This document shows, in pieces, positions 559-5,962 of a stretch of 64,000 nucleotides of DNA (position 1 is the first letter of the stretch; each line of letters opens with the position of its first letter). The notes under the pieces are model-generated. The model saw nothing but the letters and a program-made list of their open reading frames with translations. It did no database searches and was not told where the DNA came from. Position numbers and translations under genes: made by a program. The DNA is from Verrucomicrobium sp. (GTDB lineage: Bacteria; Verrucomicrobiota; Verrucomicrobiia; Methylacidiphilales; GAS474), in the NCBI GenBank assembly GCA_028283855.1, contig JAPWJX010000003.1:682001-746000 (forward strand), read 5' to 3'.

Positions 559-1596
559 TCAGGCGGCGGCCCCGGCCAGGGGCGGCGTCATGGTTCCCTT
601 GAAGCGGGGCTCTTCCGGCGGCAGGCCGAAGTTGGCCGCGACGAGGGTGTCGATGCGGGCCAGTTCCTCCGCCGTGAGGGCGGGGGTCTCCGGCGCGGCG
701 GCGAATTCTTCCAGCTGTTCGGCGTTGTAGATGTTCGGCAGGCAGCAGCCGGTGCGCGGGTCGGCCAGGAGCCATTGGAGGGCGGCCTGGCCCAGGGTGC
801 GGCCGGGGCCTTCCAGGAAGCGGAGCTGGTCGACTTTCTGGATGCCGCTCAGCAGCCAGGAGCGGGGGCGGTGGCTGCGGTGGTCGGTGGGGGGGAAGGT
901 CGTCTCGGCGGTGTATTTCCCCTCCAGCATGCCGCTGGAGTGGGGGACGCGGACCAGGAAGCGGGTGTCGGGGCTCTCGCCGTCGTCCATCATCTGCCGG
1001 CCGGGGTGGGGCTCCAGCAGGTTGTAGATGTGCTGCAGGATGTGGGGGCGGCGCTGGCGGAGGGTTTCGATCCCTTCGTAGAGCCAGCCGATGGCGGGCC
1101 CCAGGGCGGCGCCGTAGGAGCGGATCTTCCCCTCTTTCTGCAGGGCGGCCAGCAGTTCCCAGAGGCCGTCGTCCTGGACTTGTTCCATGCGGATGTTGTG
1201 GAGCTGGAGGATGTCGATCCGGTCGGTCTTCAGGCGCTGGAGGGCCAGGTCGGTGGCCTGGCGGATGAAGGGCAGGGAGAAGTCGTGCGGGATTTCCCGC
1301 TGGCCCCGGCGCTCCTCGCCATGGTCGTAAAAGTTATAACCAACCTTGGTGGCGATGACGACTTTGTCCCGGTCGGCCGGGGTGGGGAAGGCCTTGGCCA
1401 GCAGTTCCTCGCTGCGGCCGTTGCCGTAGGTGTCGGCGGCGTCAAAGAGGGTGATCCCCAGGTCGAGGGCCTTGTGCATGAGGGCGACGGCTTCCTCGTC
1501 GGTGAACTGGCCCCACCATCCGGTCGAAACGGTCCAGAGACCGAAGCCGATTTCGGAAAGCAGGAGGTCGGTGCGGGGAAGGGGGCGGTACTTCAT
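559..1596 (-). CDS. Aldo/keto reductase
   Basis: The 345-residue protein has the (beta/alpha)8 aldo/keto reductase pattern, NADPH-dependent reduction of a carbonyl substrate. Visible family motifs are LFDAADTYGNG, carrying the catalytic Asp and Tyr, IATKVGYN with the catalytic Lys, and ILQLHN with the active-site His. I chose the ATG at 1596 because MKYRPLPRTDL matches the usual family start; the open frame extends upstream to 1839 but that part overlaps nuoJ on the other strand. The substrate cannot be told. It is divergent from the nuo cluster and co-directional with the sensor gene after it. Confidence 0.88.
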   Translation of the reverse strand: MKYRPLPRTDLLLSEIGFGLWTVSTGWWGQFTDEEAVALMHKALDLGITLFDAADTYGNGRSEELLAKAFPTPADRDKVVIATKVGYNFYDHGEERRGQREIPHDFSLPFIRQATDLALQRLKTDRIDILQLHNIRMEQVQDDGLWELLAALQKEGKIRSYGAALGPAIGWLYEGIETLRQRRPHILQHIYNLLEPHPGRQMMDDGESPDTRFLVRVPHSSGMLEGKYTAETTFPPTDHRSHRPRSWLLSGIQKVDQLRFLEGPGRTLGQAALQWLLADPRTGCCLPNIYNAEQLEEFAAAPETPALTAEELARIDTLVAANFGLPPEEPRFKGTMTPPLAGAAA

Positions 1597-1695: not shown

Positions 1696-2157
1696 ATGGA
1701 CGCCTTTATCTTTTGCGTCAGCCTGCTGCCCCTCGGGGCGGGGGGGCTGGCGGTTGTCCTGGGGCGGCGCCCCGTGACGAACGCCGCCGGTTTGGCGGCG
1801 GTCCTGGCCGGGTTGGCCGGGCTTTTCCTTTCCCTGCATGCTTCCGGGCCGGCCTCCGTGGCGGCCGTTCTGGCGGGGGCGGCCTGGGGCGGCCTGATTC
1901 CCTATGCCCGCGGCGCCGGGCTGGAGCCGGAGGAGGGAATGCGGCTGCGCCCCTTCGGCCTGCTCTGCGGCCTGGCGGCGGCTCTCTTTTTCGCCACGGT
2001 CTTTTTCCGCGCGGCCCGGTCGCTAAGCGGCTCTCTGCCGGGGGATGTCTCCGCCGCCGTCGACGGCAGTTATTTTTTGCCCGCTCAGGCGCTGGTCATT
2101 CTGGTCCTGGTAGCGGTGGTGGCCGGGGCTTGGCTGGGGCGGAAGGGGGCGGCGTGA
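1696..2157 (+). CDS. nuoJ: NADH-quinone oxidoreductase subunit J-like membrane protein
   Basis: A 153-residue hydrophobic protein with about five membrane segments, placed directly before a clear NuoK. Position, size and hydropathy identify it as NuoJ, a small subunit of the complex I membrane arm. The usual conserved third helix (VY-x-GA-x-x-VL-x-x-F pattern, containing the E. coli Tyr59 region) is poorly kept: the aligned stretch reads VLAGAAWGGLIPYA. This subunit is therefore divergent, like the rest of the cluster. Its TGA overlaps the GTG start of nuoK. Without the neighbouring genes the assignment would be weak. Confidence 0.65.
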   Translation: MDAFIFCVSLLPLGAGGLAVVLGRRPVTNAAGLAAVLAGLAGLFLSLHASGPASVAAVLAGAAWGGLIPYARGAGLEPEEGMRLRPFGLLCGLAAALFFATVFFRAARSLSGSLPGDVSAAVDGSYFLPAQALVILVLVAVVAGAWLGRKGAA

Positions 2158-2450
2158 CTTTCCACGCCTACGCGGCGGCGGCCGCCTTCCTCTTTTTCCT
2201 GGGAATTTTTGGGATGGTCGCCCGGCGCAATCTCTTTGCCCAGCTGCTTTCCCTTCAGCTTCTCTTTGCCGGGGCAGCCCTGCTTCTGGCCGCCTTCAGC
2301 CGCTTCCGGGACCGGGACGGGGCGGTGTTGGCCGTTTTTGTCCTGATGGTGGCGGCTGTCTGGACGGCGGCGGCCGCGGCGCTCCTCGGCTTTCTGCAGC
2401 GCCGCCGGCGGACGATCCGGAGCGAGGATTTCACGACCCTCAAGTTTTAG
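2154..2450 (+). CDS. nuoK: NADH-quinone oxidoreductase subunit K-like, both conserved Glu lost
   Basis: Ninety-eight residues with three membrane helices and the NuoK landmarks: LGIFGMVARRNL near residue 20 and a basic tail with QRRRR. It starts at GTG 2154, overlapping the nuoJ stop. Aligned by eye to E. coli NuoK, the two membrane glutamates needed for coupling are replaced: Glu36 corresponds to Gln35 (LLSLQLL) and Glu72 to Trp70 (MVAAVWTAA). A six-base gap separates it from the next gene. The fold seems intact but the proton-pathway charges are missing. Confidence 0.8.
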   Translation: MTFHAYAAAAAFLFFLGIFGMVARRNLFAQLLSLQLLFAGAALLLAAFSRFRDRDGAVLAVFVLMVAAVWTAAAAALLGFLQRRRRTIRSEDFTTLKF

Positions 2451-2455
2451 TTCCA

Positions 2456-2728
2456 ATGGCCCTTCCCCGCTTTCTCTATTTGGCGCCGTTCCTGGCCCCC
2501 CTTGCCCTGGGGCTGGCCTGGCTCTTGCGCGGTTTGCCTTCCCTTGGCCTGGCGGCGTTTGTTTCCGCCGTCGACCGCTGGGGCGTCGCCTTTCTCTTGG
2601 TGCGCGGCGCCGGGCTGGCGGCCAGTCTGGCGGGGGAGTGCGGGCGGCTTCTCCAGGTCGGCAATGTGCGGGGCGGCCTTTTCTTCCTGATCCTGGGCGG
2701 CGCGGGGCTCGTCGCCCTTTTCCTCTGA
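2456..2728 (+). CDS. Short membrane protein resembling only the C-terminus of NuoL
   Basis: Ninety residues sit exactly where nuoL (about 600 residues) is expected between nuoK and nuoM. An N-terminal membrane helix (about residues 7-24) is followed by a stretch that matches the extreme C-terminus of NuoL: a VDRWG segment where NuoL has its VDxxxID region, then GRLLQVGNVRGG resembling the family's RxLQTGxVRxY, then a last membrane helix. The antiporter-like core of NuoL is absent. Its TGA overlaps the nuoM ATG. It may be a reduced NuoL retaining only the anchor, or a new subunit built from it. Confidence 0.65.
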   Translation: MALPRFLYLAPFLAPLALGLAWLLRGLPSLGLAAFVSAVDRWGVAFLLVRGAGLAASLAGECGRLLQVGNVRGGLFFLILGGAGLVALFL

Positions 2729-4203
2729 TGTTGGCCCTTCTCCTCCTCCTGCCCCTGGCGGCGCTGGCGGCGATCCTCCTGGGCGCTCCGGCGAAGCTTG
2801 CGGCCTTCCTGGCCGCCCTGGGCAATTTCCTCCTGAGCGCGGCCCTTGCGGTCCGCTTCGTCCCGGGAACGCCCGGCTTCCAGTTCGAGCAGCGGGCGGT
2901 CTGGGCCGCTTTCGACGGGACCGGGAGCCTTTCCCCGACGCTGCCGCCGATTGTCTGCCACCTGGGCATCGACGGCCTGAGCTTGCCCCTTCTTCTGGCG
3001 GCGACGCTGGTGACGCTGGCCGCGGTCCTTCTTACTCCCAAGCGGCTGGCGCAGGGCACGGCGACGTTTTATGGGCTCCTCCTGGTCCTGGCGGAGGGGC
3101 TGGTGGGGGTTTTTGTCTCGCTCGATCTTTTTTTCCTCTCCCTCTTCGCCACGTTGACGATCCTGCCTCTTTTCCTTCTGACGGGCCGTTGGGGCGGGCG
3201 CAATCGGCGCTTTGCCTCCCTTCAGGCGGCGCTCTGCCTGGCGCTGGGGAGCCTGGCCCTGCTCCTGGCCTTGGTCGCCCTCGTCTCCGCGCTGCCGCCC
3301 TCGGCCCGGACGTTTGACGTGACGGTCCTGGCGGGCGCGCGGGGGCTCGTCGGCCCGCAGGTGGCGCCGCTCCTCTTCGGCCTCCTGCTTTTGGGCGCGG
3401 GGCTGTTGGTCCCGCTTTTTCCCTTTCATAGCTGGTTCCCTGCCGCGCAGGCGGCGGAGCCGCCCCCGGTGGCGATGCTCCACGGCGCGCTTTTCAAGAA
3501 TGCCGGACTCTATCTTCTCCTGCGTGTGGCGTGGCCGCTTTTCCCGGAAACGGCGCGGCACGGGGAGGCGTGGCTCCTGGGTCTGGCGCTGGCGCAGGCC
3601 TTCGGCCTCGGCTTGGTGGCGCTGGCGCAGCGGGAGCTGCCGCTTTTGGCCGCTTCCTGGAGCGCGATGCGGACGGGCGGCCTCCTGCTGGGGCTGGCGG
3701 CCTGGAATCGGGTGGCCCTTTCCGGCGCGGTTCTTTGGATGGCGGCGGATGCCGTCGCCTTCGCCCTCCTCTTCGGCGCGGCGGGGGAGATTGTCCGCCG
3801 GACGGGGGAGGCGCGGATCGCCCACCTGGCGGGCCTGGCCCGCCGCGCGCCCTGGCTGGCGGGGATGTTCGGCCTGGGGGCGCTGGCCCTCCTGGGCTTC
3901 CCCGGCCTGCCCAACCTGGGCGGCCAGGAGGCGCTCTTCCTCGGCGCGTGGGCGGTTCACCCCCGCGCGACGCTCTGGATGGCGGGCGGCTTTTTCGCCG
4001 CCGCGGTTTTTCTGGCGAAGGCGCTGGCCCCCCTTTATCTGGGCGCGCCCGCCGGGCCGCCGGGGGCCGACTTGGCCCCGGGCCCGGAACGGCGGCCGTT
4101 CTATCTTTTGGCGGGCGGCCTTCTGCTTCTGGCCCTCCTGGCCGGGTCGGTCCTGCGCGCGGCTTCCGTGGCGGCGGGGCCGTTCTTCGGGGGGGCGCGA
4201 TGA
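2728..4203 (+). CDS. nuoM: NADH-quinone oxidoreductase subunit M-like, key charges altered
   Basis: A 491-residue antiporter-like membrane subunit with about 14 hydrophobic helices. NuoM landmarks remain: LDLFFLSLF, LFLLTGRWGG, PFHSWFP and ALFKNAGLYLLLR. Against E. coli NuoM, Glu144 in helix 5 aligns with Thr142 (FATLTILP), and Lys234 in helix 7 with Leu227 (GLLVPLFPFH). The helix-8 Lys265 is kept as Lys257, and a Glu like Glu407 is kept at 401 (GGQEALF). The Asp of the usual WLPDAH motif is Ala. ATG 2728 overlaps the preceding stop, and the gene overlaps nuoN by four bases. Confidence 0.85.
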   Translation: MLALLLLLPLAALAAILLGAPAKLAAFLAALGNFLLSAALAVRFVPGTPGFQFEQRAVWAAFDGTGSLSPTLPPIVCHLGIDGLSLPLLLAATLVTLAAVLLTPKRLAQGTATFYGLLLVLAEGLVGVFVSLDLFFLSLFATLTILPLFLLTGRWGGRNRRFASLQAALCLALGSLALLLALVALVSALPPSARTFDVTVLAGARGLVGPQVAPLLFGLLLLGAGLLVPLFPFHSWFPAAQAAEPPPVAMLHGALFKNAGLYLLLRVAWPLFPETARHGEAWLLGLALAQAFGLGLVALAQRELPLLAASWSAMRTGGLLLGLAAWNRVALSGAVLWMAADAVAFALLFGAAGEIVRRTGEARIAHLAGLARRAPWLAGMFGLGALALLGFPGLPNLGGQEALFLGAWAVHPRATLWMAGGFFAAAVFLAKALAPLYLGAPAGPPGADLAPGPERRPFYLLAGGLLLLALLAGSVLRAASVAAGPFFGGAR

Positions 4204-5603
4204 ACGGGCTCCTGTTGCCGTTGCCGGAGACGATCCTCGTCGTCCTGGGTCTTTTCCTTTTGGGCCGCCGCTGGCGCGCGGCGCGGCGGGGGGGCGGGCT
4301 GGTGGTGGCGGGAACGCTGGCGGCGCTCCTCCTGGAGTTTGTCCTGCCCCGGCAGTCGGGCTTTTACGGCTTCGGCCTTTATCTTTGGGACGGGACGGCG
4401 CTTTTCTTCCAGGTCTTTGTCCTGGCGGCGACGGCCTGTTGCGCCCTCCTGGGCCTTTTGACCGGGGCGCGGCCGCGCTGGCCGTTCCTTCTTTTTTCCG
4501 CGGCGGGCCTGGTTCTGCAGGCGGCGGTGAACGATTTTCTCCTCCTTTTCCTCGCCTGGACGGCTTCCTTCCTTCCCGCCGCGCTGGCCTTGGCGGGCGG
4601 GCGGGAGGCTTCCGCCGCGGAGGAGGAGGCCTCGGTGAAGACTCTCTTCCTGGCGATGGTGGGCGGGGTGCTCCTGGCCTTGGGGATCGCCTTGATTTTC
4701 GGCGTCGCGGGGAGCACGCGGTTCGACGTCGTTGCGGGGGTGCTGGAGACCCATGATCTGACGCCCGCGCTGGCGGCCGGGCTTCTTCTGGTCTTGGCGG
4801 GCCTGGGCTTCACCATCGGGGCGGTGCCGTTCCATTTTTGGGCGCCCGACGCGCAGCAAGGGGCCTCCATTCCCCTTTCTGCCTTTCTGGCGGTCGCGTT
4901 CAAGGGGGCGGGCTGCGCGGCGCTCTTGCGCGTGCTCGACCTGCCCTTCGGCGGGGTGGCGGTGGAAGGGGTGGCTCTGGCCGCCCTGGCGCTGACGGCG
5001 GTCCTTTCCCTGGCGCTGGGGAGCCTGGCCGGCCTGCCGCAGCGCAACGGCAAGCGCCTTTTGGGCTATGCGGGCATTGCCCACGCGGGATTTTTCCTGG
5101 CCGCCCTGGCGGCCAATAGCCGGGCGGGCTCCCACGCGCTTTGTTTTCTTTTGGTTTCCTATTTCCTGGCCGTTTTCCCCGTCCTGGCGGCGATCGCCCT
5201 TTCCGCCTCGCCGACCGGCGGCCGTCCCCAGCCGGGGACCCTGGCCGCCTTCGCGGGGCTGGGCCGCCGCGCGCCGCTCCTGGCCTGGGCCGCCGCGCTG
5301 GGGCTTGCCTCCCTGGCCGGGATTCCTCCCCTGCCCGGCTTTTTCGCCCGTTTTCTTATCGTGGCGGCCGCGTGGCAGGGGGGACAATACGGCGTGGCGG
5401 CCGCGGCCGTCCTGTTTTCCGTGCCGCTCCTCTATGGGGCGCTGGCGCTCATCCGGGCGATCTTCGTCGAGGAGCCGGCGGAGGAGGCCCCTCTCCGGCT
5501 GGAGCCGGGGATGCGCGCCTTCCTGGCGGGCGGGGTGGGGGTGACCCTCTTTTGCGGCCTCTGGCCGGGGCCGCTGCTGGCTTGGCTGGGCCGTCTCTTT
5601 TAG
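4200..5603 (+). CDS. nuoN: NADH-quinone oxidoreductase subunit N-like, key charges altered
   Basis: A 467-residue antiporter-like membrane subunit, recognisable as NuoN from GAVPFHFWAPDAQQG, AVAFKGAG, KRLLGYAGIAHAG and LAGIPPLPGFFARF. E. coli Glu133 aligns with Thr121 (LFLAWTASFLP). Lys217 aligns with Thr205: the normally FK-x-x-AVPFH motif reads FTIGAVPFH. Lys247 is kept as Lys235 and Lys395 is Arg384. The Thr replacement of the helix-5 Glu parallels that in nuoM. ATG 4200 overlaps the nuoM stop. It is the last gene of the cluster and converges, with a 4-base overlap, on the Fe-S carrier gene. Confidence 0.87.
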   Translation: MNGLLLPLPETILVVLGLFLLGRRWRAARRGGGLVVAGTLAALLLEFVLPRQSGFYGFGLYLWDGTALFFQVFVLAATACCALLGLLTGARPRWPFLLFSAAGLVLQAAVNDFLLLFLAWTASFLPAALALAGGREASAAEEEASVKTLFLAMVGGVLLALGIALIFGVAGSTRFDVVAGVLETHDLTPALAAGLLLVLAGLGFTIGAVPFHFWAPDAQQGASIPLSAFLAVAFKGAGCAALLRVLDLPFGGVAVEGVALAALALTAVLSLALGSLAGLPQRNGKRLLGYAGIAHAGFFLAALAANSRAGSHALCFLLVSYFLAVFPVLAAIALSASPTGGRPQPGTLAAFAGLGRRAPLLAWAAALGLASLAGIPPLPGFFARFLIVAAAWQGGQYGVAAAAVLFSVPLLYGALALIRAIFVEEPAEEAPLRLEPGMRAFLAGGVGVTLFCGLWPGPLLAWLGRLF

Positions 5604-5962
5604 ACGGTGAAGCTCTTCCCGCAGGAGCAGTGGGCGCTGGCGTTCGGGTTGGTGACGGTGAAGCCGGTGCTTTGGAGGTCCTCGCTGTAGTCGAGGGTCG
5701 AGCCGCTGACGTAGAGGGCGCTTTTCGGGTCGATGAAGAGGCGGACGTTGCGCGCTTCGATGACGATGTCCTTCGCCCGGGGTTCTTCCACCAGGTCCAT
5801 TTGATACTGCAGGCCGGAGCATCCCCCGCCGACGACGGCGATGCGGAGGGCCCCCCGGGGCTTGGCGCTCTGGGCCAGGAGGGACTCCAGTTTGCGGGCG
5901 GCGGCGTCGGTCAGGCGGCAAAGGTTTTCGTTGCCGGAGGTGGTGGGGGTGGAAATACCCAT
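5600..5962 (-). CDS. A-type iron-sulfur cluster carrier (IscA/ErpA/HesB family)
   Basis: A 120-residue HesB-like protein that accepts and delivers Fe-S clusters in the cytoplasm. The three conserved cysteines are visible: Cys48 in GGGCSGLQYQM, and Cys112 and Cys114 in the C-terminal HCSCGKSF. The first ~12 residues are a variable extension. It is convergent with nuoN. Complex I needs many Fe-S clusters, so the neighbourhood is sensible, though the facing orientation means it is not co-transcribed. Motifs do not separate ErpA from IscA or SufA. Confidence 0.92.
   Translation of the reverse strand: MGISTPTTSGNENLCRLTDAAARKLESLLAQSAKPRGALRIAVVGGGCSGLQYQMDLVEEPRAKDIVIEARNVRLFIDPKSALYVSGSTLDYSEDLQSTGFTVTNPNASAHCSCGKSFTV

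Follow-up and report, generated by a model that had tools for sequence, protein, structure and literature searches.

The five genes nuoJ-K-L'-M-N found in the window, the whole 64,000-nucleotide stretch of DNA analyzed here, are, judged from gene content and gene neighborhood, an inherited orphan, the membrane arm of complex I, and not a working variant of that enzyme. The cluster is probably, although by no means securely, a non-pumping, remodeled membrane remnant derived from complex I and retained by weak selection on its structure or its compatibility with the membrane. In the proposed course of events, nuoJKLMN would be one half of a complex I operon split in two, a half that was passed on vertically and left an orphan when the genus lost nuoA-I; no redox energy would then reach the arm, whose buried charged axis is broken in three subunits (K, M and N) and absent from L. 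The five proteins may still be made and take their place in the membrane, as a sub-assembly or just a set of proteins, but without pumping, and their likeliest use would be structural, for example stabilizing or organizing other membrane proteins, by analogy with the 'deranged' subunits of the Acetobacteraceae, whereas NADH oxidation would presumably be left to NDH-2-type enzymes together with terminal oxidases. A stronger version, in which the arm outlived its enzyme, had the NuoL core removed in frame and its buried proton-path residues replaced, and was then rebuilt as a membrane complex that does not pump but has taken on a novel role in structure or transport, can be proposed only tentatively.

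Gene content of the cluster and of the genome

All five genes abut or overlap on the same strand (Table 1), and their junctions, as read from the sequence, are GTGA between J and K, a 5 bp gap between K and L', TGATG between L' and M, and ATGA between M and N. The preliminary description had located J, K, M and N correctly on the + strand, although its list of four genes overlooked the fifth one, nuoL'. Pfam and NCBIfam searches assign K, M and N to Nuo families with scores under the curated NCBIfam cut-offs, return only a sub-threshold match for nuoJ, and give no match for the L' protein; the family matches and the synteny with canonical loci identify J, K, M and N as Nuo orthologues. The last 60 residues of L' correspond to the C-terminal end of NuoL in 16/16 canonical orthologues of the order (best E 1e-13). 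For its first ~25 residues a resemblance to the N-terminus of NuoL was seen, a visual/MAFFT match that is weaker than the C-terminal assignment. About 500 codons of nuoL, including the entire antiporter core, are gone in frame, and full-length NuoL is absent from the genome, whose only PF00361 matches are the NuoM and NuoN of the cluster. A promoter scan detected none in the cluster region. AlphaFold models of NuoM and NuoN, built on shallow alignments (the window protein and Nitrospirota loci), reached a pLDDT of 38-48, and no conclusion rests on them.

Table 1. Genes of the orphan nuo cluster and its two flanking genes, in window coordinates.
Feature	Coordinates	Strand	Description	Evidence or remark
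nuoJ	1696..2157	+	153 aa, degenerate; helix-3 core YAGAVMVLFLFIIMLLDL replaced	PF00499 E=0.0015, below cut-off; invariant columns kept 12/30
nuoK	2154..2450	+	98 aa, GTG start; E36Q, E72W	PF00420 E=9.5e-15; alignments
nuoL'	2456..2728	+	90 aa; C-terminal 60 aa of NuoL and probable ~25-aa NuoL N-terminus, joined in frame	
nuoM	2728..4203	+	491 aa; E144T, K265N, H322R, H348D, E407Q	PF00361 E=6.9e-28, TIGR01972 E=2.4e-64
nuoN	4200..5603	+	467 aa; E133T, K217T, K395R; K247, E154, K158 kept	PF00361 E=2.1e-47, TIGR01770 E=6.2e-67
akr (flank)	559..1596	-	Aldo/keto reductase; divergent from nuoJ	Also nuo neighbor in f8 (Methylacidiphilaceae-like) loci
erpA/iscA-type (flank)	5600..5962	-	Fe-S protein; convergent with nuoN	73% identical orthologue in congener G002

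The genome (2.56 Mb, 95.6% complete, 9 contigs, with the window on contig 3) was searched family by family for NuoB, NuoD, NuoF, NuoH, PF00361 and Nqr/Rnf. Neither NuoB, NuoD and NuoH, nor a PF01512 match for NuoF, nor Nqr/Rnf membrane subunits were found in it, although the targets were recovered in control genomes. The preliminary description had proposed looking for a second, canonical nuo cluster and for accompanying A-I genes; no such cluster was found in the genome search, and none of B, D, F and H, the A-I genes searched, is present. The cluster can accordingly be compared with three known enzymes: NDH-1, from which it differs in the absence of the quinone module (B, D, H), the NADH module (NuoF) and full NuoL; the Fpo-like or 11-subunit enzyme (A-D and H-N, without E, F and G), of which B, D, H and full L are absent; and the Mrp antiporter (MrpA-type plus MrpD-type), for which a third PF00361 protein is lacking and the NuoM/N models score highest. 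Lacking any quinone or NADH module as a driver, the cluster cannot work as complex I, and since B, D, F, H and full L were not found in the genome, the earlier suggestion of a complex that pumps weakly or is coupled differently is not supported. Two COX1 matches and two NDH-2-like matches, 25-27% identical to E. coli Ndh, make an aerobic chain based on NDH-2 likely.

Proton-path residues and the extent of change

Residues were compared in alignments with E. coli MG1655 (locus L072, whose numbering is used) and, for each subunit, with 15-20 orthologues belonging to the same order and class. Most of the substitutions first described were borne out: E36Q and E72W in NuoK, where all 20 other orthologues have Glu at both positions; E144T in NuoM, where all the others have Glu; and E133T together with K217T in NuoN, where all the others have Glu and Lys. 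The Leu reported for Lys234 of NuoM is present too, but it was not lost in this copy, since 20/20 orthologues have Leu and the change is therefore ancestral in the clade. The helix-8 Lys, described as kept in both subunits, is kept in NuoN (K235, equivalent to K247) but not in NuoM, where Asn258 sits at the K265 column within a gap-free block of 15 residues; the Lys that is kept in NuoM (K257) neighbors that column and is the first member of a KK pair specific to the clade, and pairwise alignment to E. coli NuoM by phmmer alternatively opens a gap that aligns K257 to K265. Losses not described before are E407Q, H322R and H348D in NuoM, K395R and E104P in NuoN, and the helix-3 core of NuoJ, whereas NuoN retains E154, K158, K247, H224 and a basic residue at 395. 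Most of the membrane-buried proton-path residues conserved in NDH-1 are gone, and no parallel charge loss was seen in relatives, the changes in the window being lineage-specific with the exception of K234L.

Work on E. coli NuoN found E133A to be silent and K217A to have a mild effect, with K247 and K395 as the critical positions (PMC13073174), and the E. coli NuoM mutant E407K continues pumping at ~1.5 H+/e- (PMC9271201). Some of the changes would be tolerable alone, because E. coli mutants tolerate them (NuoN E133 and K217, NuoM E407), and of the NuoN positions critical in E. coli the window has K247 kept and K395 changed to Arg; single changes are thus partly tolerable, but their sum, with NuoL gone as well, makes pumping untenable. 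The description of the arm as non-pumping is supported in this sense, a pumping function being most unlikely.

The loss extends well past the proton path and its pattern is far beyond chance: the window keeps 137/223 invariant columns (61%), against 94-100% for the 20 other orthologues when each is left out in turn, and in a tree of K, M and N combined its branch measures 1.87 substitutions/site, about three times longer than those of the other Verrucomicrobiota tips (<=0.64). A stripping of charges as a class, which the preliminary description had read into the substitutions, is rejected, since charged invariants were lost at the same rate as other residues (Fisher p=1); it holds for buried positions alone, the lost charged invariants lying in more hydrophobic surroundings than the kept ones (1.70 vs 0.95, Mann-Whitney p=0.0013). 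Membrane-buried charges go and peripheral ones stay; Gly and Pro are the best kept among the invariants (41/49).

A separate observation concerns NuoM in the clade at large, where Leu replaces the 'essential' helix-7 Lys234 in 20/20 Verrucomicrobiota (L033-L052), together with an extra helix-8 Lys (KK) and a His that precedes Glu144; in Nitrospirota-type NuoM, the consensus (L059-L067; ASIAP) appears to be without Lys234 as well.

Origin of the cluster and known counterparts

NuoM and NuoD are absent from both congeners, G001 and G002, which indicates that the cluster is dispensable within the genus. In G002, fliS, the gene matching the window's 8216, fliD, erpA and akr follow in the order of the window without any nuo genes; its akr, a 73% identical orthologue, adjoins erpA, and only 10 bp separate the erpA stop from the akr start (L069:12196-12207), vs 4 kb of nuo genes in the window. 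These 10 bp might suggest that a foreign nuo fragment was inserted between erpA and akr, a possibility rejected because akr and erpA flank nuoJ and nuoN elsewhere in the order: akr orthologues (57-65% identical) lie divergently upstream of nuoJKLMN in five loci (L033-L037), and erpA orthologues directly follow nuoN in five others (L039, L041, L043, L048 and L049), relative to which erpA is inverted in the window. Since these loci come from other families within the order, the arrangement in the window is ancestral, and the cluster was inherited rather than inserted.

The nuo genes are split in this order, with NuoD on another contig or at least 100 kb from nuoJKLMN in ten genomes (G003, G004, G006, G009, G010, G014, G016, G024, G031 and G038; in G038, for instance, at 209 kb vs 2,058 kb), whereas in other orders of the class NuoD lies ~9-11 kb from nuoM (e.g. 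G066, G069 and G100). Because the operon is split into two loci, one half can be lost without the other. The canonical nuoJKLMN loci of the order (e.g. L033, L035, L039 and L049) share with the window the J-K-L-M-N order, Leu at position 234 of NuoM, akr upstream or erpA downstream and, in many of them, start/stop overlaps; they differ in a full-length NuoL, intact proton-path residues and a NuoD elsewhere in the genome, none having been found in G007. This last genome (locus L049), which belongs to the same order and is 95% complete, combines canonical J-N residues with no NuoD match, which reflects either a gap in the assembly or the same loss at a less advanced stage.

Genomes commonly carry incomplete complex I sets, and retained non-functional respiratory subunits are known as well. 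The Acetobacteraceae retain a 'deranged' bc1 and a COX1-like protein without cofactor ligands, for which a structural role was proposed by the authors (PMC10715153); as in the window, respiratory membrane proteins are kept there after the loss of catalytic residues, although in the window the whole membrane arm is orphaned and no complex I is left to stabilize. A survey lists 2,171 prokaryote species with subsets of Nuo subunits only (PMC12361115), a partial nuo set in one genome being what the window presents too; the parts of that survey drawn on here count subunits and do not report residue loss, gutting of NuoL or selection on remnants. The Mrp Na+/H+ antiporters are membrane-only relatives of NuoJ, K, L, M and N, but the cluster lacks the MrpA core, fits the NuoM/NuoN models far better than the Mrp models and, judged from its synteny, descends from nuo. 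A small literature search turned up no report of an orphan J-K-L'-M-N arm in which NuoL is gutted and buried charges are lost. If the proteins are made, the cluster would offer a natural experiment on a membrane arm freed from selection for pumping, in which structural residues are kept and those serving proton transfer only are lost; it would also contribute to a stepwise series for the dismantling of complex I in a lineage with terminal oxidases, from the split operon through the loss of nuoA-I and the remodeled arm to the clean deletion.

Selection on the remnant and competing explanations

The five reading frames are open, with no stop or frameshift of the kind that marks a pseudogene, and at least 14 lineage-specific length changes are every one in frame; reading the two other frames of NuoJ helix 3 by eye revealed no compensated frameshift. 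Neutral simulation at comparable divergence predicts ~4-8 stops, a count that is weak evidence by itself in DNA of 69% G+C, and ~45 indels, a number that depends on the assumed indel rate (5% of substitutions), so the case rests on indels and hydropathy. The GRAVY of NuoM (1.02) falls within the canonical range of 0.82-1.08, whereas neutral drift would yield 0.6 to -0.3 and more charges, and the substituted invariant hydrophobic sites are membrane-tolerant in 32/39 cases vs 22.5 expected by neutral mutation (p=0.001); this invariant-column test counts most, because exchanges of one hydrophobic residue for another may in part be older than the loss. The frames, the gene overlaps and the hydrophobicity, intact past neutral expectation, point to selection for open, membrane-compatible proteins after their release from proton transfer. 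The open frames, the kept start/stop overlaps and the hydrophobic sites that stay hydrophobic more often than under neutrality also support the earlier statement that the cluster is not in simple decay. No close relative bearing the cluster was found, a GTDB scan with NuoM giving ten loci only (nine from Nitrospirota and one from Planctomycetota), all 27-30% identical.

A relic under loss is the serious rival to a remnant under weak selection and, although the less probable of the two, deserves real weight. Constraint would be gone and the arm drifting, with frames left open by the high G+C, at which few neutral stops are expected, and by a fairly recent loss, the deletion being already complete in G002. 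The two congeners without NuoM, one with a clean deletion scar, are in line with this explanation, as are the breadth of the loss across residue classes, the deleted NuoL core, and a NuoJ that falls under the Pfam cut-off. Two further points, a NuoJ that looks near-degenerate and the lack of a visible partner gene, speak against the remnant under weak selection. A branch of 1.87 substitutions/site, however, implies much change and yet zero frameshifts, the hydropathy and the start/stop overlaps have been preserved, and a division of the charges into buried ones lost and peripheral ones kept would not arise by random drift.

A redirected function, in which J-K-L'-M-N, or M and N alone, would transport ions or solutes or anchor another protein in the membrane through the K247/Arg395 axis of NuoN and the new Arg315 and Asp341 of NuoM, is improbable. 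In its favor, NuoN retains E154, K158, K247, H224 and a basic 395, and mutants of E. coli show K247 and K395 to be the most important positions (PMC13073174); NuoM gained charges at two His sites, and homologous subunits do function in Mrp antiporters (PMC7419157); nevertheless, NuoM is without every canonical path residue tested, bar one displaced Lys, the E133/K217 pair of NuoN is lost in both members, the genome has no third PF00361 protein such as MrpA, and the operon has acquired no new gene. The earlier suggestion of an anchor for another enzyme may likewise still apply, but no partner gene accompanies the cluster, and its neighbors are unchanged in G002, which is without it. An incomplete assembly, with nuoA-I in the missing few per cent of a 95.6% complete genome in 9 contigs and a reduced complex I still built, is very improbable: a single gap could hide all of nuoA-I because they form one separate locus in the order, but the apparently complete G002 is also without NuoD and NuoM, and NuoK, NuoM and NuoL' have lost residues or domains kept by every complex-I-bearing relative compared.

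The other congener, G001, provides an observation of its own: a PF01512 (NuoF/RnfC-type) match in an open frame of 706 aa (L071, G001:C267:3255-3770), in a genome from which NuoD and the Nqr/Rnf membrane subunits are absent; this protein may be a subunit of a hydrogenase or a formate dehydrogenase.
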